A stretch of DNA of 64,000 bases, from the NCBI GenBank assembly GCA_910589415.1, contig OU342636.1:40935735-40999734 (forward strand), written 5' to 3'. The notes under the pieces were generated by a model, which saw only the letters and a program-made list of their open reading frames with translations, did no database searches and had not been told where the DNA came from. Below, one piece after another: positions 14,832 through 62,667 of the stretch (positions within the stretch are counted from its first letter, which is position 1; every line of letters starts with the position of its first letter). Both the position numbers and the translations under genes were made by a program. The stretch comes from Malachius bipustulatus (taxonomy: Eukaryota; Arthropoda; Insecta; Coleoptera; Melyridae).

Positions 14832-15834
14832 GTTATACAGGGTGGGCCATCGAAAAGGTAACAAGCCTAATAGTTTGGAAAGTGAAGATGTATGCGAAAA
14901 ACGCCGAAACAGGTCGATTTTGTTATCGAGGGGGACATATTTTCGTGACAAATTTAACTACCCAAGTTCACCCCTTTGGCAGGGGTAGCTACCCCTTTGC
15001 TTATCATCATAGGGAACAGATATCGAGTGATACATCATTTGAAAACTACTTGAATTTTTTTTACAACGATCTCCAACATTGTGGGTTTCGCTTACATACA
15101 GGGTGGCCCAACGAAAACGTAACTCGCCCTAATAACTTGGAAACTGAAGATGTACGCGAAAAACGCCGAAACAGGTCGATTTTGTTATCAAAGTGGGCAT
15201 ATTTTCGTGGCAAATTTAACTACCCAAGTTCACCCCCTTGGCAGGGGTAGCTACCCCTCTGCTTATCATCATAGGGAACAGATATCGAGTAATACATTAT
15301 TTGAAAGCTACTTGAATTCTCTTTACAACGATATCCAACATTTTGAGTTTCGCTTACATACAGGGTGGCCCAACGAAAACGTAACTCGCCTTAATCACTT
15401 GTATGTGTATGTAGGCCACCCTGTATGTAAGCGAAACCCAAAATGTTGGATATCGTTGTAAAGATAATTCAAGTATCTTTCAAATGATGTATCACTTTTG
15501 CTTACATAAAGGGTGGCCCAACGAAAACGTAACTCACCTTAATCACTTTGTATGTAGGCCATCCTGTATGTAAGCGAAACCCAAGATGTTAGTTTTCGTT
15601 GTAAAGAGAATTTAAGTAGCTTTCAAATGATGTATCACTCGATAGCTGTTCCCTATGATGATAAGCAAAAGGGGTAGCTACCCCTGCCAAGGGGGTCAAC
15701 TTGGGTAGTTAAATTTATCACGAAAATATGTCCCCTTCGATAACAAAATCGACTTGTTTCGGCGTTTTTCGCATACATCTTCACTTTTCAAATTATTAGG
15801 CTTGTTACCTTTTCGATGGCCCACCCTGTATAAC
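14832..15834. mobile_element. Nested inverted-repeat element with TTATACAGGGTGGGCC ends
   Basis: The left arm (14832 to about 15107) and right arm (about 15553 to 15834) are inverted copies covering GTTATACAGGGTGGGCCATC, the CGCCGAAACAGGTCGATTTT block, the GGCAGGGGTAGCTACCCC palindrome and the ATCATTTGAAA block. Between them is a second, diverged unit in direct order (about 15098-15375), beginning ATACAGGGTGGCCCAACG, and partial inverted pieces of it (about 15395-15560). The two long plus-strand frames here (14828-15250 and 15150-15461) merely read the same 260-bp repeat unit and are not genes. Confidence 0.85.
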
Positions 15835-17690: not shown

Positions 17691-17943
17691 TTCACGGCTT
17701 TTTAAATTATTGGCTTTCTGAAAATTTCCATAGTCATGTCATGTTAGCATAGTGCAATATGTACTGTGAAAAATTTTCTGTGATAACTTCATTTCATTTC
17801 GTTTGAAAGCGTGCCTTAAAATGGATTTTTAAATTTAAAAATCAAAAAAATTGGCAAAATTTAACAATTTATACAATAGATGAATGACATGTTGTCAGAC
17901 AACATGCCATCCATTAATGTTGTGCTGTGAGCAGAGGCGGAAA

Positions 17944-17986
17944 TTGTAGACACGTGTTTCGTCCTGTTTGGGACTCTTCAGTACAA
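17944..17986 (-). ncRNA. Candidate type I hammerhead ribozyme, family 1, antisense copy
   Basis: Mirror image of the plus-strand motif at 18002-18044 within the palindrome's left arm, and identical to it. The core is CUGAAGA, stem II GUCC/GGAC, GAAA, a short stem III with palindromic ACACGUGU, and cleavage position after GUC. The two motifs of the element are divergent. Confidence 0.8.
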
Positions 17987-18001
17987 AATCGTAGAAAGAC
18001 T

Positions 18002-18044
18002 TTGTACTGAAGAGTCCCAAACAGGACGAAACACGTGTCTACAA
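18002..18044 (+). ncRNA. Candidate type I hammerhead ribozyme, family 1, sense copy
   Basis: Stem I: TTGTA (18002-18006) pairs with TACAA (18040-18044). The core CTGAAGA is at 18007-18013. Stem II is GTCC (18014-18017) with GGAC (18024-18027) and loop CAAACA. GAAA (18028-18031) follows. Stem III is two base pairs closing ACGT inside the self-complementary ACACGTGT, then C18039 at the expected cleavage position (GUC). Every universally conserved hammerhead base (C3 U4 G5 A6, G8 A9, G12 A13 A14, A15.1-U16.1, H17) is present. A minimal stem III with a palindromic loop is the known form in metazoan retrozymes and Penelope-like elements, where dimers help activity. Cleavage itself is not shown by sequence. 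Confidence 0.85.
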
Positions 18045-18279
18045 TTTCCGCCTCTGCTCACAGCACAACATTAATGGATGGCATGTTGTCTGACAACATG
18101 TCATTCATCTTTTGTCTAGCAACGCCTAGTAGGGGCTTTACCTACTTCATGCACACCGGGAGGCACTGCACTCATTTTTGGCATGCATTATGGCTGTCTG
18201 GGGTGTATCCTATGGCGCAAGCCGAACCCACCGTGCCTTTTATTTTATTTTTATTTCAATTTATACAATGTTTATAGAA

Positions 18280-19440
18280 ATGTAGACATTTTTACCCTTT
18301 TCTTACCCACGCCTCTGGCTTATTAATAGAAATAATGCAAATTGTACTGCATTAGCTCAAATTTCAAATAAGTTTATTCCAATCATGTTAATTTCGTTTA
18401 AAAATTTTTGTTTCTGACTTAACCCCTAAATAGGGTTCAAAATCTAGCAATTTTCCTAAAATTGAAAAGGCCGCCATTTTGGAACGTTTTTACCTATTTT
18501 ATTCAAATACAGTACCAGACGACTACTTGAGGTTATCTTACTACCTACCAGAAAAATTTCAGCGCGCTAGATTGAAAACTTCGACCAGAACCCGTGCCTC
18601 ACGGATGGTTTTTTTTTTAAATTCGGAGGGACATACTGTAGAAGTAACGCAACTCTAGGAAAATGTTTTTTATGAAAATTTAACGTCAGCCCTGAGGTTT
18701 ATAAGAGTAAAAAATTTCGTTCATTAATCTTGAAAGATGAATATAAGCTACAGGAGCGTTTTTAAAATTTTAGAGAAATAAACATCATATAAAAAAAAAT
18801 CGAATATCTCCGCCATTTTTCTTATTTACTTTTTGAAATTCTCAAGGATTGAAGTCTATTAGTATAGTTGTCTACTGTAAAAATTTCAGTTTAATTACTT
18901 CAAAAATGTGCTCATAAATTGTTAGAGAAATTTAGCCATTTTTACCCTTTTTCTACCCACGCCACTGGCTTATTAATAAAAAAAAATGCAAATTTTATTG
19001 CACTTAATTAAATTTCAAGTCATTTACTTCCAATCTTGTGAATTTGATATAAAACTCTATTTCTATCTAGCTTATACAGGGGTTAAAAAAATAGTCTTTT
19101 TTGCAAAAATTAAAATGGCCGCCATTTTGAAACGGCTCAGCCGATTTTGCTCAAGTGCAATACCAGACCACTCCTTGTGGATGTCTTACTTCCACAAAAG
19201 TTTCAGTCTCCTAGATCGAAAACTGCGACCTGAAATGAGGTGACAAAAACCGAATTTTCCGAATTTTGAAGGGACACCCTGTAGAAGTGACGCGACTTTT
19301 GGAAATTTTTTTAATGAAAATCGAAATTGTTCCTAAAGTTTAATAAGAGTGCAAAATTTCGTTCACTAATCTTGCAAGATAAAGCTACAGGAGCGTTTTT
19401 AAAATCGAAATTTCGTGATTTTGGAGAAATAATTATATAC
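18280..19440. mobile_element. Two old, diverged relatives of the composite repeat body
   Basis: About 18285-18790 and 18925-19440 both carry, in order, 'tttttaccctttt.ctacccacgcc.ctggcttattaat', a 'caggggtt...aaaatagt' block, 'ggccgccattttg.aacg', 'caataccagac.actccttg', 'agaagtgacgcgac' and 'ctacaggagcg'. This is the order seen in copies A, B, C and E, but at clearly lower identity. They lack the tRNA-like part and the ends. The 85-codon frame at 18986-19243 is part of this repeat. Confidence 0.75.
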
Positions 19441-33704: not shown

Positions 33705-34069
33705 CGTTTATTTGCCCAACAGATTATGATATCCATTTACTGGACAAAACAATGTTTGTTTTCTTAAATACCTATTTAACATTAATAACATATAAAAAAA
33801 AACACCAAAAAACAAAATAATACAGAACTAAGAATTTAAAGAAATAATGGAAAAAATGAGGACATACGTCCCAATAAATGTCGATTCGATTGACCAGATA
33901 CACAAGCAATATTATAGAGAAACTTGTAGAATTAACCTTAAATAAAGAAATAGTGTATTTTTTATGCGATTCAATAGTGAATATTTTCTTCCTATTTTTT
34001 TTGATAATGAATATAATGAAAAAATAATCCGATTTTTTTTGGGAAAACCTACCTACCAAAAAAAAAGAA

Positions 34070-34145
34070 TGATCCTCTCGTGGTTTCGAACCCGCACCAA
34101 CAGTTTACTGGGCAAGGGTGTAATGAACTGAGCCACGGTGCGTTT
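34070..34145 (-). other. tRNA-like internal pol III promoter (SINE-like head), copy A
   Basis: On the minus strand, TGGCTCAGTTCATTA fits the A box (TRGCNNAGYNGG) at 9-10 of 12 positions. GGTTCGAAACC, about 31 nt downstream, fits the B box (GGTTCGANTCC) at 10 of 11. The spacing matches tRNA genes and tRNA-derived SINEs. I cannot fold a full cloverleaf: the T stem and D stem are poorly paired. It is therefore best called a degenerate tRNA-derived promoter. Confidence 0.65.
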
Positions 34146-35163
34146 CAAATTTGTAGTGCTGATCGCGTAAGTATATGTAGTACGTCAGGTACCTACACCT
34201 ACACATTTTATTTTTTAAACTAGTCATATCTTAGTTATTAAAAGACCAATTTGAATACTTTTTTCACCTGCATGTAGGTGATTTAATTGTCGTTGCGATT
34301 GCTCTTCTAATTTTCAGAACCATTCATAATTGAATGTGAAAAAAAAATAAAAAAGAAATTGCGAACCATTTCATCGATTAAATAATTTTATATAAGTGTA
34401 AGCTAATTTTGCACAAGCCAAAAACTTTTTTAGTTTTCGTTTAAAGTGCTACATTAATCGAGGCGAATTGAAGCTAAGACATCAAATTATATGTTAAAGA
34501 AAAAAAAATGGAAAATTTCGGTTCAACTTCTTCAAAAATGGACTCATAAACGGTTATAGAAATTTACACATTTTTACCCTTTTCCTACCCATGACACTGG
34601 CTTATTAATGGAAAATATGCTAATTTTATTGCATTAACTCAAATTTCTAATAATTTTCTTCAAATCCTGTTAATTTGATTTCAAAGTCTTTTTGTCATCT
34701 TGTTCATACAGGGGTTCAAAAAATAGTAAATTTTCCGAAAATTCAAATGGTCGCCATTTTGAAACGGCTCGGTCGATTTTGCTCAAGTGCAACACCAGAC
34801 CACTCCTTGTGGACATCTTACTCTCACAAAAATTTCAGCCCCCTAGATTGAAAACTGCGGCCAGAAACCGTGCCTCAAGGACCGGATTTTTGGAACTTTG
34901 AAAGGACACCTTGTAGAAGTAACGTGACTTTTGGAAATTTTTTCAACGAAAATCTAAAGTCATTCCAAAGCTTTACAAGAATACAAAATTTCGTTCACTA
35001 ATCTTGAAAGATAAAGCTACAGGAGCGTTTTGAAAATCGAAAAATCGTGATTTTGGAGAAATAAATATATATATATAAATATATAGTAAAAAGAAGACGT
35101 TTATTTGGGTTCTCGGGCTCATAGATAATACTGATCTTAAAGTCAAAAGCAGACAAAAACAAT

Positions 35164-35222
35164 GTTGAAGACATGGATGGCCATTTCGCTCTTTTTAGAG
35201 CTCATCAGCATGTCATATCAAC
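35164..35222 (-). ncRNA. Candidate type I hammerhead ribozyme, family 2, antisense copy
   Basis: Exact reverse complement of the motif at 35296-35354, in the left arm of the palindrome. It has the same core, stems and cleavage position and faces away from the centre. Confidence 0.85.
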
Positions 35223-35295
35223 AATCGTAATTGTCTACTTCTAGCTAAAGATCAGTTGATACTATAGCTTTAGCTAGAAGTAGACAATTACGATT

Positions 35296-35354
35296 GTTGA
35301 TATGACATGCTGATGAGCTCTAAAAAGAGCGAAATGGCCATCCATGTCTTCAAC
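35296..35354 (+). ncRNA. Candidate type I hammerhead ribozyme, family 2, sense copy
   Basis: Stem I outer part GTTG (35296-35299) pairs with CAAC (35351-35354). An internal loop ATAT/TT follows, then inner stem GACATG (35304-35309) with CATGTC (35343-35348). The core CTGATGA (35310-35316) is the most common natural form. Stem II is GCTC/GAGC (35317-35320, 35327-35330) with loop TAAAAA. GAAA (35331-35334) follows. Stem III is the self-complementary ATGGCCAT, with C35342 at the cleavage position (AUC). All invariant bases are present. The internal loop in stem I and the A-rich loop II are where natural type I hammerheads make their tertiary contact. Confidence 0.9.
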
Positions 35355-35414
35355 ATTGTTTTTGTCTGCTTTTGACTTTAAGATCAGTATTATCTATGAG
35401 TAAAAAATACACTA

Positions 35415-42714: not shown

Positions 42715-44862
42715 ATACAGGGTTATGCAAAATTTCATGGTTCCAATATTAGGAAACATATTAAATCGCAACTGGTTAGAGTAAGTTAAATGGGGGAAAA
42801 GTGGTGCTTTTTTTGATTGCGATTTTTTTTCTACCGTTAATAACTCACTCTGTATAAAAGATATACATATACCTAGAATTATGAATTCATCCCATTGGCC
42901 ATAGTTGACATGTACTGATTATGTAAAAAAAAACAGGGCAATCTAGATTTGGCATAGCGATAGTCAACTTTTATTTTTCTCATGGACACCATATTGGAAT
43001 TTTACATCGTTCAGTAGAAAATATCACACTTGTACATTTTAAGGGAACCAGAAAAAATTTCATTTGAAATTTGAAGGCCACAATGCCTCGGAAACGGGGT
43101 TACTTTGACCCCAACATAGTGGAGAGGATCTGTCAAAAAAAAAGGCTCCATCCGCCTTGGACTCGAGAATCTTTTTTTTATTTATTTTTTCATAAATTGG
43201 ACCCCCTCTTCATTTTGGTGGCATTTTCAAAAATTTAATCGACGCCCTGGCGGAGAAATGTACATGCGAAGACATCGGCAACGTGATTAATCTAGCCGCG
43301 GAGCAGCGAGAGCCGGGGGCGGAGCCTAGCGCTCCCTCTCCTTTCTCTCTTCTCTCACAGACACACACGCTAGATTAATTGGTTTACATATCACGTCCGC
43401 GTGCAGGCCCTAATTGAGATAGCGACATGGGGTAAGCTTGAAAGGGGACACTTAGCCCTAAAAAATGCCGGGTAGCGGAACCCGCTAACCCTAATCCTTG
43501 CCATTCTACAGGACCAAACGCGTTTGATGACCCTGTGACCTTAATAATGGTCCGATCGAGGTCTACTGGGGCTCAAATCAAAGATCAAAAAAATTCCCGT
43601 CTGATGACGAAAATTTTTTTACCCACACCCCCTTCTTTCATGGCAAAAAAACAGTTTTAAGAAAAAAAAGGGGGGAGGGAAATCGGTTTTTTAGCGGGTA
43701 TCTTGCCAATATTGGCGGAATCGAAAAAAAAAAATACCATTTTAAAGTAGGCATTCCAAAGTGCCATTTCCCATTGGTTGGGCCTGACGCCCCAATATTA
43801 GCGAAAGTTATAGCAATTTGAATTTTAATTATGATTTCCCCTCCCCCTCCCCCTCTAATCGAGATAGCGACTTCAAAATCTCAGGCATCATTGAGGACAC
43901 TGCTGTCTGTCGATGAAAAAAAAATTCAGTCCCTAAGTCGATTTTTTCCATGCAAAACACGCGAACACGAACGGCGGTGTATTCGCACCGCGGCGGAACC
44001 CTGAAGAAAGGGTCTTAAAATTGAAAATGCGATATCTCGAGAACCGTTTGACCGATTTGGACCAGTCAAAGTTCAAATTACGCGTTTGAGAGCTCTTCAT
44101 TTTTCGACAGGATATTTACTATGCTCAGAGTTGAATTAAGCGAGTTATGTGCAAAAAACCCATTGCCGATGTCTTTTTTTTTTTTTTTTTTAATTAACGT
44201 ATATGGCTTTGGCGGAGACCAATTAGCCAGAACTTTTTGAAAAGTAAAAACTGAGACATGAAGGAATAACAGTAAATTAGCAAGCCATACACCCCAGCAC
44301 TCACGCAGGGGCTCATCCAACAAACGCATGGAAACTGTATAGCTATAGTCTAGTTAGTTAATAGTAAATGTCTTCGCATGCACATTTCTCCGCCAGGGCG
44401 TCGACTAAATTTTTGAAAATACCACTAAAATGAAGAGGGGGTCCAACTTTATGAAAAAAAAAATAAAAAAAAATTCTTGAGTCCAAGGCGGTTCGAAAGT
44501 TAGACCCGCTCTACTAACAGAGGTAGCTCTGTTTATCTAATAGGCAACTAAAACTGACAATCTCCAGGCAAAATCTAGATGGCCGCGATTTTTTTGACAT
44601 ATTCAGTAGGTAGGTACATGTCAACCATATTGTGCAATGAGTTGATTTCAAAATTTTAGAACTGTATATCAGCTGCTACACAGACTGAGTTATCAACAGG
44701 AGAAAAAATTAAAAATTTCAGTTTTTTTTCAATTATTATCTAGTGACCTATGCAAAAAACTTAACTCTGAAAGATTCATGGGAGACAGAGTCTCCATCTC
44801 TAACCATTTCCAATATCCCAATACTGGCACCATGAAATTTTCGTAACCCTTTATAAGTAAAT
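42715..44862. mobile_element. 2.1-kb inverted-repeat element
   Basis: The left end ATACAGGGTTATGCAAAATT, then TCATGGTTCCAATATTAGG, is mirrored by CCAATACTGGCACCATGAAA, then TTTTCGTAACCCTTTATAAG. A second strong pairing lies inward. 'cgccttggactcgagaatct' and 'ggaccccctcttcattttgg' up to 'gacgccctggcggagaaatg' and 'catgcgaagacat' (43158-43285) are inverted at about 44366-44490. The arms are thus about 570 bp, with the middle parts diverged. The centre is GC-richer (43300-43440, 43960-44060) and non-coding. A poly-A retroposon has landed inside (44172-44282). The similarity to other TACAGGGT elements is limited to the tips. Confidence 0.8.
44172..44282 (-). mobile_element. Short poly-A retroposon inside the inverted-repeat element
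   Basis: Minus strand: 'tttactgttattccttcatg...gtctccgccaaagccatata...cgttaatt' followed by a run of about 20 A (plus-strand poly-T 44173-44192). The same 100-bp sequence with a poly-A tail is inserted at 62557-62657. No duplication was recognised here. Confidence 0.75.
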
Positions 44863-48004: not shown

Positions 48005-48625
48005 AAACTTTTTTATTTTTCATTTAAAGTGCTACATTAATCGAGGCGAATTGAAGCTAAGACATCAAATTATATGTTAAAGAAAAAAAAATGGAAAATT
48101 TCGGTTCAACTTCTTCAAAAATGGACTCATAAACGGTTATAGAAATTTACACATTTTTACCCTTTTCCTACCCACGACACTGGCTTATTAATGGAAAATT
48201 TGCTAATTTTATTGCGTTAACTCAAATTTTCAATAATTTTCTTCAAATCCTGTTAATTTGATTTCAAAGTTCTTTTGCCATCTTGCTCATACAGGGGTTA
48301 AAAAAATAGTGAATTTTCCGAAAATTCAAATAGTCGCCATTTTGAAACGGCTCGGCCGATTTTGCTCAAGTGCCATACCAGACCACTTCTTGTGGATATC
48401 TTACTCTCACAAAAATTTCAGCCCCCTAGATTGAAAACTGCGGCCAGAAACCGTGCCTCAAGGACCGGATTTTTGGAACTTTGAAAGAACACCCTGTAGA
48501 AGTAACGTGACTTTTGGAAATTTTTTCAACAAAAATCTAAAGTCATTCCAAAGCTTTACAAGAATCCAAAATTTCGTTCACTAATCTTGAAAGATAAAGC
48601 TACAGGAGCGTTTTGAAAATTCACT
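48005..48625. mobile_element. Composite repeat, copy E (truncated at both ends)
   Basis: Matches copies A-C from 'aaacttttttatttttc.tttaaagtgctac' to 'gataaagctacaggagcgtttt'. It lacks the tRNA-like part, the AT tract and the right end. Identity to copies A and C is high, so truncation is probably recent relative to the diverged pair at 18.3-19.4 kb. Confidence 0.85.
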
Positions 48626-54027: not shown

Positions 54028-54173
54028 CTTCTTGCGCATCAATCGCAGAAATAGTGTATTTTTATGCGATTCAATAATAAATATTTTCTTCCTATTTTTT
54101 TTTTATAATGAATTTAATGAAAAATAATCCGATTTTTTTTTGGGAAAACTCCACCTACCTACAAAAAAAAAAG

Positions 54174-54255
54174 AATGATCCTCTCGTGGATGCGAACCCG
54201 CCGCTCCAACAGTTAGCTAGTCAAGGATGTAACAAACTGAGCCACACGGTGCGTT
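54174..54255 (-). other. tRNA-like motif, copy B
   Basis: Minus strand TGGCTCAGTTTGTTACATCC, and 35 nt downstream GGTTCGCATCC. The A box is conserved; the B box has a C at the usually invariant A position, so promoter strength is doubtful. Confidence 0.5.
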
Positions 54256-55182
54256 TCGAATTTGTAGTGATGATGGGGTAGATATATGTAGTACGTCAGG
54301 TACCTACATCTACTCATTTTATTTTTTAAACTGGTCATATCTTAGTTATTAAAAAACCAATTTGAATACTTTTTTCACCTGCATGTAGGTGATTTAATTG
54401 TCGTTGCGATTGCTTTTCTAATTTTCAGAACCATTCATAATTGAATGTGAAAAAAAATAAAAAAGAAATTGCGAACCATTTCATCGATTTAATAATTTTA
54501 TATAAGTGTAAGCTAATTTTGCACAAGCGAAAAACTTTTTTATCTTTCGTTTAAAGTGCTACATCAATCGAGGCGAATTGAAGCTAAGACATCAAATTAT
54601 ATGTTAAAGCAAAAAAAAATGGAAAATTTCAGTTCAACTTCTTCAAAAATGGACTCATAAACGGTTATAGAATTGACACATTTTCACCCTTTTTCCTACC
54701 CACGACACTGGCTTATTAATGGAAAATATGCTAATTTTATTGCATTAACTCAAATTTCCAATAATTTTCTTCAAATCCTGTTAATTTGATTTCAAAGTTT
54801 TTTTGCCATCTTGCTCATACAATGGTTCAAAAAATTGTCAATTTTCCGTTAATGTTCAAAAAATTCAAATGGCCGCCATTTTGAAACGGCTCGGCCGATT
54901 TTGCTCAAGTGCAATACCAGACCACTCCTTGTGGACATCTTACTCTCACAAAAATTTCAGCCCCCTAGATTGAAAACTGCGGCCAGAAACCGTGCCTCAA
55001 GGACCGGATTTGGGGAACTTTGAAAGGACACCCTGTAGAAGTAATGTGACTTTTGGATTTTTTTTCAACGAAAATCTAAAGTCATTCCCAAGCTTTACAA
55101 GAATCCAAAATTTCGTTCACTAATCTTGAAAGATAAAGCTACAGGAGCGTTTTTAAAATCGAAAAATCGTGATTTTGGAGAA

Positions 55183-55233
55183 ATATATATATATATAAAT
55201 ATATAAATATATAAATATATAAATATATATATA
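55183..55233. repeat. (AT)n / ATATAA low-complexity tract
   Basis: ATATATATATATAAATATAT, extended with repeated AAATATAT units. Confidence 0.9.
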
Positions 55234-56554: not shown

Positions 56555-56786
56555 TAATTTTATTTAATGAAATAAAAATAAAAACAAAATAAAAGGCACG
56601 GTGGGTTCGGCTTGCGCCATAGGATACACCCCAGACAGCTATAATGCATGCCAAAAATGAGTGCAGTGCCCCCCGGTGTGCATGAAGTAGGTAAAGCCCC
56701 TACTAGGTGTTGCTAGACAAAAGATGAATGACATGTTGTCAGACAACATGCCATCCATTGATGTTGTGCTGTGAGCAGAGGCGGAA

Positions 56787-56831
56787 ATTGTAGACACGTG
56801 TTTCGTCCTGTTTTAGACTCTTCAGTACAAT
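56787..56831 (-). ncRNA. Candidate type I hammerhead ribozyme, family 1, with altered stem II
   Basis: Minus-strand mirror of 57074-57118 with two substitutions in stem II and its loop. The 5' side reads GTCT instead of GTCC, giving a U-G closing pair with GGAC, and the next loop base is A rather than C. Core, stem I (ATTGTA/TACAAT) and stem III are unchanged. This is the copy embedded in the 319-bp head-to-tail unit. Confidence 0.75.
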
Positions 56832-57073
56832 GTATCTACCAACACACAGCACAGTTTAGATCACGAATCCCGTGAGCAGAATGCAATGAAATAAAAATAA
56901 AAACAAAATAAAAGGCACGGTGGGTTCGGCTTGCGCCATAGGGCCATATCACTGGGGTGTATCCTATGGCGCAAGCCGAACCCACCGTGCCTTTTATTTT
57001 GTTTTTATTTTTATTTCATTGCATTCTGCTCACGGGATTCGTGATCTAAACTGTGCTGTGTGTTGGTAGATAC

Positions 57074-57118
57074 ATTGTACTGAAGAGTCCCAAACAGGAC
57101 GAAACACGTGTCTACAAT
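57074..57118 (+). ncRNA. Candidate type I hammerhead ribozyme, family 1, full motif
   Basis: Stem I ATTGTA (57074-57079) pairs with TACAAT (57113-57118). The core CTGAAGA is at 57080-57086. Stem II GTCC (57087-57090) pairs with GGAC (57097-57100). GAAA is at 57101-57104. Stem III lies in ACACGTGT (57104-57111), and C57112 is the cleavage base. Six-base-pair stem I makes this the best-paired of the family 1 copies. Natural relatives with nearly the same stem II and core occur in retroelements of other animals. Confidence 0.88.
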
Positions 57119-57335
57119 TTCCGCCTCTGCTCACAGCACAACATCAATGGATGGCATGTTGTCTGACAACATGTCATTCATCTTTTGTCTAATTTTATTT
57201 AGATTTGAGATACTTTTTCTATCTTTTTATGTGGAATGGAGTCATAGAGTTTCACCCATATCTCTGATGAATCTAACTCCACTATTGAGAGAATAGTTTT
57301 TGTCATGTGATGCAAGAAAACACTACCACAAAGGA

Positions 57336-58757
57336 AAAAACCTTCTTGCGCATCAATCGCAGAAATAGTGTACTTTTATGCGATTCAATAATAAATATTT
57401 TCTTCCTATTTTTTTTTTATAATGAATATAATGAAAAAATAATCCGACTTTTTTTTTGGGAAAACTCCACCTACCTACCAAAAAAATAGAATGATCCTCT
57501 CGTGGTTTCGAACCCGCACCAACAGTTTGCTAGGCAAGGGTGTAATGAACTGAGCCACGGTGCGTTTCAAATTTGTAATGCTGATCGCGTAGGTATATAT
57601 AGTACGTCAGGTACCTACACCTACACATTTTATTTTTTAAACTAGTCATATCTTAGTTATTAAAAAACCAATTTGAATACTTTTTTCACCTGCATGTAGG
57701 TGATTTAATTGTCGTTGCGATTGCTCTTCTAATTTTCAGAACCATTCATAATTGATGTGAAAAAAAATAAAAAAGAAATGGCGAACCATTTCATCGATTT
57801 AATAATTTTATATAAGTGTAAGCTAATTTTGCACAAGCGAAAAACTTTTTTATTTTTCGTTTAAAATGCTACATTAATCGAGGCGAATTGAAGCTAAGAC
57901 ATCAAATTATAATATGTTAAAGAAAAAAAAATGGAAAATTTCGGTTCAACTTCTTCAAAAATGGACTCATAAACGGTTATAGAAATTTACACATTTTTAC
58001 CCTTTTCCTACCTACGACACTGGCTTATTAATGGAAAATATGCTAATTTTATTGCATTAGCTCAAATTTCCAATAATTTTCTTCAAATCCTGTTAATTTG
58101 ATTTCAAAGTTTTTTTTTTGCCATCTTGCTCATACAGGGGTTCAAAAAATAGTAAATTTTCCGAAAATTCAAATGGTCGCCATTTTGAAACGGCTCGGCC
58201 GATTTTGCTCAAGTGTAATATCAGACCACTCCTTGTGGACATCTTACTCTCACAAAAATTTCAGCCGCCTATATTGAAAACTGCGACCAGAAACCGTGCC
58301 TCAAGGACCGGATTTTTGGAACTTTGAAAGGACAATCTGTAGAAGTAACGTGACTTTTGGAAATTTTTTCAACGAAAATCTAAAGTCATTCCAAAGCTTT
58401 ACAAGAATCCAAAATTTCGTTCACTAATCTTGAAAGATAAAGCTACAGGAGCGTTTTTAAAATCGAAAAATCGTGATTTTGGAGAAATATATATATATAA
58501 ATATAGTAAAAAGAAGACGTTTGTTTGGGTTCTAGGGCTCATTTCAAACGTCTTCTTTTTACTATATGTACTTGGCTCGAATAACTCTCCACTTTGTTAT
58601 TGTAATTATATAAATATATATCGTGGGCAGGTGAATTTTGGAAAAGCACTTTTTCGTGATCTGGGGGTCAGGATCGGTGGACATTTGGTGAGTTTGGGTG
58701 ATTTTCGAAAAGTGATGTCGTCCTCAATAGTGTATTTTTTTGTTAAAAAATACACTA
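57336..58757. mobile_element. Composite repeat, copy C (most complete)
   Basis: It has the left end as in copy B, the tRNA-like motif at 57491-57568 (minus), the full body, an AT tract and a small inverted repeat AGTAAAAAGAAGACGTTT / AAACGTCTTCTTTTTACT (58506-58563). The TCGTGGGCAGG segment shared with B follows, then the terminal palindrome ending AAAAAATACACTA. The unit is about 1.4 kb. In copy A the part between the AGTAAAAAGAAGACG word and the right end is replaced by the ribozyme palindrome. Frames at 58118-58327 and 58430-58783 are repeat readings. Confidence 0.85.
57491..57568 (-). other. tRNA-like internal pol III promoter, copy C
   Basis: Minus strand TGGCTCAGTTCATTACACCC, then a B box GGTTCGAAACC, as in copy A. 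Confidence 0.65.
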
Positions 58758-62546: not shown

Positions 62547-62667
62547 GGGCACAATAATTTACTGTTATTCCTTCATGTCTCAGTTTTTACTTTTCAAAAA
62601 GTTCTGGCTAATTGGTCTCCGCCAAAGCCATATACGTTAATTGAAAAAAAAAAAAAAGGGCACAATA
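62547..62667 (+). mobile_element. Poly-A retroposon with 10-bp target-site duplication
   Basis: GGGCACAATA occurs at 62547-62556 and 62658-62667, enclosing a 101-bp insert that ends in AATTG followed by 14 A. The insert matches 44172-44282 in the opposite orientation. No pol III boxes are evident in this length, so it may be the 3' end of a longer LINE or gene transcript. Confidence 0.85.

Follow-up and report, generated by a model that had tools for sequence, protein, structure and literature searches.

A hammerhead ribozyme motif lies at positions 57074-57118 of the DNA analysed here, a stretch of 64,000 nucleotides (the window) from the beetle Malachius bipustulatus. It occupies one arm of an inverted repeat. 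The locus bears on how elements with a ribozyme of this kind may be mobilised.

The hammerhead motif and the two foldbacks of the window

The preliminary description proposed a complete hammerhead within a foldback retroelement, and named beforehand a covariance-model search of both strands as one test that could refute it. In a cmscan of the whole window on both strands, with the RF00163 gathering threshold of 34 bits applied, Hammerhead_1 (RF00163) matches 57074-57118(+) with the proposed borders, at 58.7 bits (E 7.5e-13). The match covers the full model, 1-45, and every model pair is standard, so that the motif is upheld. The core reads CUGAAGA...GAAA, with a stem I of 6 bp and a stem II of 4 bp. 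Helix III is given by the model as ACAC/GUGU; sterically, we read it as 2 bp plus an ACGU tetraloop. An exact 26-nt hammerhead pattern had 0 matches in IMG/VR contigs.

There are four RF00163 matches in the window, on both strands. They form two head-to-head pairs, with one hammerhead per strand in each foldback, and the foldbacks (insertions A and B) are 39 kb apart. Both consist of copies of a 320-bp unit (GC 0.447), derived from a tandem array of successive identical units (L009). Unit position 1 is the first hammerhead base and the predicted cut follows position 39. Two positions at which insertions end are named S1 (unit 118, within 6) and S2 (unit ~265-266, within 9). The features, including the target-site duplications (TSDs), are as follows:

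17865..17877, left 13-nt TSD of A
17870..17986, minus strand, minus arm of A, unit 2 to 118; the alignment extends a few bases into the duplication
17878..18256, insertion A, head-to-head foldback retrozyme with outer ends at unit ~118 (left) and ~266 (right)
17943..17987, minus strand, hammerhead of A, RF00163 at 52.2 bits
17999..18262, plus strand, plus arm of A, unit 319 round to 263; the alignment extends a few bases into the duplication
18001..18045, plus strand, hammerhead of A, RF00163 at 52.2 bits
18257..18269, right 13-nt TSD of A
56555..56566, left 12-nt TSD of B
56566..56942, minus strand, minus arm of B, unit 209 round to 267; its 3' end lies at S2
56567..57189, insertion B, head-to-head foldback retrozyme with outer ends at unit ~266 (left) and ~118 (right)
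56787..56831, minus strand, second hammerhead of B, RF00163 at 53.0 bits
56952..57191, plus strand, plus arm of B, unit 198 round to 118; its 3' end lies at S1
57074..57118, plus strand, type I hammerhead ribozyme, RF00163 at 58.7 bits; predicted cut after C57112
57190..57201, right 12-nt TSD of B

Stem II is present in the minimum-energy fold of 57040-57140, together with a lower helix I that lies beyond the 6 bp of stem I and pairs UGUGCUGUG with CACAGCACA; upper helix I is paired otherwise than in the hammerhead. The fold energy is not unusual (z -1.21; 20 of 200 shuffles are equally stable). Because the flanks add the lower helix I, the predicted structure looks more like a canonical type I hammerhead than like the minimal kind of Penelope-like elements (PLEs).

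In the folded tandem context, stems I and II can be enforced for only 0.5 kcal/mol; forcing them against the long hairpin of the whole foldback costs 73.0-76.5 kcal/mol (four strand-by-element cases of A and B). In a transcript of A or B, from either strand, the antisense arm comes before the ribozyme, which should therefore be trapped in the hairpin. As a consequence, a whole-element transcript would be a poor molecule for a cleavage test. The hammerhead at 57074-57118 is intact in sequence and, from these predictions, probably inactive when the whole locus is transcribed, and tandem and single-orientation copies would be better candidates for activity than foldbacks. More generally, a hammerhead detected in a genome by its motif may belong to a foldback and then be unlikely to adopt its fold.

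The element fits an animal non-LTR retrozyme by its size, composition, tandem order, duplications and ribozyme type. A type I hammerhead lies in a short tandem unit, 320 bp as against the ~170-400 nt typical of the class, and GC is below 50%. At A and B the element is non-coding, no reading frame of at least 110 aa overlapping either insertion in the window, and TSDs exceed 4 bp (at least 12 nt at 28 of 58 insertions). The preliminary description's two labels are borne out, 'foldback retroelement' by the head-to-head arms and TSDs, and 'animal retrozyme' by the unit in tandem arrays and the same duplications. A PLE would encode a reverse transcriptase with a GIY-YIG endonuclease; there is no long frame in A or B, and the element is therefore not itself a PLE. 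Like PLEs, it has a head-to-head inverted arm and two unlike ends, one with and one without a tail, at a spacing that differs from theirs.

The window holds several other repeats. An empty site for A or B was sought by means of the window's repeats, among which the left flank had no continuous paralogue. A dispersed repeat of up to ~1.18 kb has six copies, roughly 72-96% alike (33946-35122, 48005-48620, 54047-55205, 57361-58542, 18272-18768 and 18880-19439), one of which insertion A directly adjoins. At the end of another copy lies a perfect palindrome with 133-nt arms and 17 nt between them (35118-35400). Units of 262 and 143 bp, rich in GGTGGCC, are arranged in tandem and inverted at 14832-15834, without a hammerhead by cmscan. 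ARAGORN found no tRNA in the window; by eye, 57501-57565 resembles the reverse complement of a tRNA-derived stretch. Finally, an inverted 103-nt pair (44177-44279 and 62555-62657), 99% complementary and 18 kb apart, probably represents a young repeat family.

The retrozyme family and the ends of its insertions

The assembly searched has 544 Mb in 52 contigs; the published genome note gives 544 Mb, 51 scaffolds plus the mitochondrion, and ten chromosomes (PMC9992895). The first sample consists of the 74 hammerheads scored out of 73,468 first-look candidates; most lie on contig C1, and copy counts are accordingly lower bounds. These merge into 56 loci and, with A and B, make 58 insertions, in which 94 45-nt hammerhead motifs with an intact core were counted, 67 of them identical. 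The second sample came from a DNA search with unit 42-266, in which 40 of 1071 candidates were scored. It gave at least 144 matches in 37 clusters, of which 31 are new, bringing the total to at least 89 separate insertions. Sequences were retrieved for 10 of the 18 new head-to-head clusters, the shorter ones. The first sample was thus chosen by hammerhead and the second, with a partial bias, by a long match over unit 42-266. With this query one arm usually had to reach 266, so that S1/S1 pairs are hardly visible in the second sample; they are detectable in the first.

An exact TSD of at least 12 nt was found at 28 of the 58 insertions versus none of 2000 random boundary pairs in an identical search; one of at least 8 nt is absent at 25. 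By orientation, 27 insertions are head-to-head, 31 are single-orientation and none is tail-to-tail. Their 85 sense 3' outer ends fall at S1 (43), at S2 (30) or elsewhere (12). Among the 55 ends with a TSD of at least 8 nt, 53 lie at the two sites (27 at S1, 26 at S2, 2 elsewhere). S1 is 79 nt downstream of the predicted ribozyme cut, and S2 is 148 nt further on.

In head-to-head insertions the two sites are used one each. With a TSD of at least 8 nt there are 22 such insertions, 19 of them S1/S2, none S1/S1 and one S2/S2 (L038); two have one end elsewhere (L029 and L031), and in L031 the displayed bases suggest a deletion before an S2-like end. All 27 together comprise 20 S1/S2, one S2/S2 and six with an unclassified end, two of which (L056 and L060) extend past the retrieved stretch.

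The second sample was used to test this one-each rule after the rule had been seen. According to the hit table, where a match reaching the query end at 266 was read as S2, 17 of the 18 head-to-head clusters are S1/S2 and one is unclear. The retrieved sequences are S1/S2 in 10 of 10 cases, with ends at 114-119 and 264-268 and with a TSD of 12-15 nt in nine. The 13 remaining new clusters end at S2 (11) or S1 (2), again by the hit table. When both ends are classified, 29 of 30 pairs (22 plus 10, less 2) have one end of each kind, for which independent equal use of the sites gives a probability of 2.9e-8. A foldback of ~5 kb, with 15 minus and 3 plus retrozyme matches, likewise ends at S1 and S2 in the hit table (G000:C16:13231838-13236905).

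The 5' ends (n=103) are scattered over the unit. Only one lies within 2 nt of unit 40, versus 1.6 expected, and with no pile-up at the ribozyme cut the ends offer no direct sign of cleaved linear templates. The left end of L033, which has a 13-nt duplication, is the sole 5' end exactly at the predicted cut (unit 40), and is possibly a cDNA run-off from cleaved RNA.

Penelope-like elements of the same genome

In a search for the GIY-YIG endonuclease 150 of 775 candidates were scored, all of them above the cut-off, giving at least 150 PLE matches. Many have open frames of ~820-855 aa, many lie ~3.3 kb apart, and they are often head-to-head. On contig C11 (84,009 bp) the endonuclease matches recur about every 3.3 kb, and L078 1-1651 contains a head-to-head centre whose 792-nt arms are 100% complementary and 26 nt apart.

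Outer ends were read from 17 retrieved head-to-head pairs, which represent 16 insertions since one of family F5 was retrieved twice. Exactly one tailed and one untailed end is present in 11 of 11 resolved pairs (8, then 3); left out of these were five insertions, namely that of F5 (L097/L098 and L101/L102), L093/L094, L103/L104, L082/L105 and L112/L113. In seven of the 11 the duplication is a TA-repeat run, with borders fuzzy by some bases. In four families the distance between the two ends is 35, 35, 35 and 36 nt, and the first site follows the expected hammerhead cut by 86, 56, 85 and 74 nt, versus 79 nt in the retrozyme. These PLE hammerheads were recognised by eye as putative minimal motifs, and the expected cut positions depend on that recognition. 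Rfam at E 0.5 detected no hammerhead in 16 PLE loci, nor did a strict motif scan. MicroRNA and sRNA matches in these loci were discarded, being below the gathering score, with the best ones in palindromic stretches.

Between the retrozyme and the retrieved PLE stretches there are only chance-level matches (best E 0.11), so that no autonomous partner can be named from them. Unit 249-269 matches PLE family F2 over 21 nt at the F2 start site; as a sequence likeness this is suggestive only. Another match, of 14 nt, to F3 is at a palindromic hairpin, elsewhere in the PLE than the start site.

Probable copying of one RNA from two start sites

We consider it likely that PLE machinery makes two copies of one retrozyme RNA, each from its own internal start site and each on one strand of a staggered break. 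The motif, the unit, the ends, the duplications, the one-each rule and its parallel in PLEs are observed in the DNA; the order of the steps we infer as follows. Multimeric retrozyme transcripts would self-cleave and probably circularise. A PLE reverse transcriptase with its GIY-YIG endonuclease would act on this RNA in trans, making a staggered cut in AT-rich DNA and copying the RNA from S1 (unit 118) and S2 (unit 266). Extension of one strand would leave a single-orientation copy with a scattered 5' end. If both strands were extended, the two would take different start sites of a single RNA, and the cDNAs would be joined at their 5' ends. The result would be a head-to-head foldback that ends at S1 on one side and at S2 on the other, flanked by duplications mostly of 12-14 nt. 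A and B would be two such double-extension products, and in their transcripts the ribozyme, preceded by the antisense arm, would be trapped.

The ribozyme, the retrozyme class, and PLE insertions with an inverted arm and an optional tail are already known. Animal non-LTR retrozymes (Cervera and de la Pena 2020, PMC7229834) share with the beetle element the type I hammerhead, the absence of LTRs, co-existence with PLEs, a tandem unit (170-400 nt there, 320 here), a GC below 50% and TSDs above 4 bp, and circular RNA has been demonstrated for them; head-to-head insertions with two fixed ends, one each, as found here, are absent from the description in the available text of that paper. Plant LTR retrozymes are likewise non-autonomous and hammerhead-bearing with a proposed circular RNA stage, but have type III hammerheads, LTRs and 4-bp TSDs, and Gypsy-type mobilisation is proposed for them (PMC7229834, PMC7761336). 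For animal retrozymes PLEs have been proposed as the movers on the basis of shared features (PMC7229834, PMC7761336). In the open-access literature searched, we found no previous description of retrozymes inserted head-to-head, nor of a fixed pair of ends of which each is used once.

Rotifer Penelope insertions have adjacent inverted pLTRs, TSDs and an optional tail on one inverted pLTR (Arkhipova et al. 2013, PMC3846280). Such PLEs thus share with the retrozyme the head-to-head arm, the TSD, the optional tail on one end and tandem copies; they differ in encoding reverse transcriptase and endonuclease and in their minimal hammerhead. Their tail is of 31 bp, compared with 35-36 nt in the four PLE families here and 148 nt in the retrozyme. 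The purified anole PLE (Poseidon, Anolis) cuts and extends both strands in vitro, and its two internal start sites match the tail (Frangieh et al. 2024, PMC11167929). Here too two internal start sites lie downstream of a hammerhead, and targets are AT-rich; the Poseidon start sites are, however, adjacent, the template is the PLE's own RNA and retrozyme RNA lay outside the assay. Ribozyme activity was unnecessary in vitro, and no strand difference in start site was reported (PMC11167929), which as a population average is compatible with use of one each within single events.

Such a fixed end pair, with one of each per foldback and a counterpart in the genome's own PLEs, is a mechanistic signature in favour of PLE mobilisation of the retrozyme, and the two predicted start sites make the proposal testable in vitro. 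The insertion ends would moreover provide a genomic readout of the use of both break strands by a PLE-type reverse transcriptase. Against the model stand the difference in site spacing (148 nt in the retrozyme versus 35-36 nt in PLEs) and the exceptions to the end rule, namely L029, L031, L038 and the unclear second-sample cluster. The chance-level likeness of retrozyme and PLE sequences, the scatter of 5' ends away from the ribozyme cut, the in vitro behaviour of the anole PLE as to strands and ribozyme activity, and the arms of L023 and L048 (below) count against it as well.

Inverted copies with duplications can be accounted for in other ways. In L1-style twin priming by LINE machinery, the second target strand primes inside the RNA and generates a 5' inversion. 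TSDs of the length seen here suit LINEs too, and at the S1 end of A target and element resemble each other by eye at 7 of 9 positions, which could be microhomology priming. Twin priming, however, yields adjoining rather than duplicated segments, whereas the arms overlap widely here; both start sites are fixed and internal, without a poly(A) end, and the PLEs of the same genome, which are the elements compared, show the same end rule. We therefore regard twin priming as unlikely. A transposase acting on terminal inverted repeats, as in foldback DNA transposons or MITEs, is less probable still: the arms are indeed inverted repeats with TSDs, but the outer ends lie at different unit positions (118 and 266) instead of forming matching termini, 31 of 58 insertions are single-orientation, and arm lengths vary. 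Least credible of all is an artefact, that is, palindromes created by misassembly, or by recombination in a rearranged satellite. Long palindromes are prone to misassembly, L122 in the second sample has no TSD, and about half of the first sample (25 of 58) lacks one of at least 8 nt; yet an exact TSD of at least 8 nt flanks 22 of the 27 head-to-head insertions, and S1/S2 foldbacks are spread over ten contigs.

A further possibility is snap-back self-priming, in which one cDNA folds back and copies itself into a hairpin, as proposed for the inverted structures of Penelope (PMC3846280). It draws support from the foldback centres. Either the arms overlap there by up to 11 nt or as many as 24 extra bases lie between them (17987-17998 and 56943-56951 are examples of such centres), and no more than 21 unit positions separate the inner arm ends in 12 of the 27 head-to-head insertions, versus 3.6 expected (binomial 8e-5), and in 3 of 10 of the second sample. 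This proximity is beyond chance, and dual initiation alone does not explain it. A copied-back strand should nevertheless end where the first one started, yet the outer ends differ, and in 22 of 37 pairs the inner ends are further apart. Snap-back is thus improbable as the origin of the foldbacks, although it may contribute to joining in some insertions.

Dual initiation by PLE machinery supposes a single template, on which the arms bear. Opposite arms could be compared in 16 of the 27 head-to-head insertions, and in 14 of these divergence is lower between the two arms than from the arms of other foldbacks, so that a single RNA, or RNAs nearly identical to each other, served as template for most foldbacks. 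The relation is reversed in L023 and L048, whose arms have diverged less from other insertions than from one another. Median divergence over the 16 foldbacks is 0.9% within an insertion versus 2.35% between insertions (Wilcoxon 0.003). A pooled estimate (0.65% between opposite arms, 4.29% between insertions) was set aside because a few long loci dominate it and because it includes L058, which is not head-to-head; taken insertion by insertion, the case for a single template is less strong than that pooled figure implied.

Both tandem homogeneity and the one-each rule would follow from a monomer circle, since such a molecule has a single copy of each start site and allows repeated rounds of copying. 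Homogeneous genomic arrays could be an alternative source of such transcripts, and the linear PLEs obey the one-each rule too, which weighs on the circle reading.

We also entertain, tentatively, a wider reading as a possibility. Retrozymes and PLEs would share a two-ended target-primed reaction in which one RNA is copied twice, with its own start site for each strand; the retrozyme template would probably be a circle, and a completed double extension would yield a foldback that ends once at each site. These sites would form a matched pair, the small non-coding RNA mimicking with hairpins the 35-nt spacing of PLEs, and the foldback would silence its own ribozyme and become a source of double-stranded RNA. 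In the predicted fold of the circle S1 and S2 share one multiloop, with three hairpins between them; that these hairpins stand in for the short PLE spacing is a guess from the model. The S1-S2 path there is 26 steps, versus a mean of 43.6 for pairs of the same separation, 17% of which are equally close.
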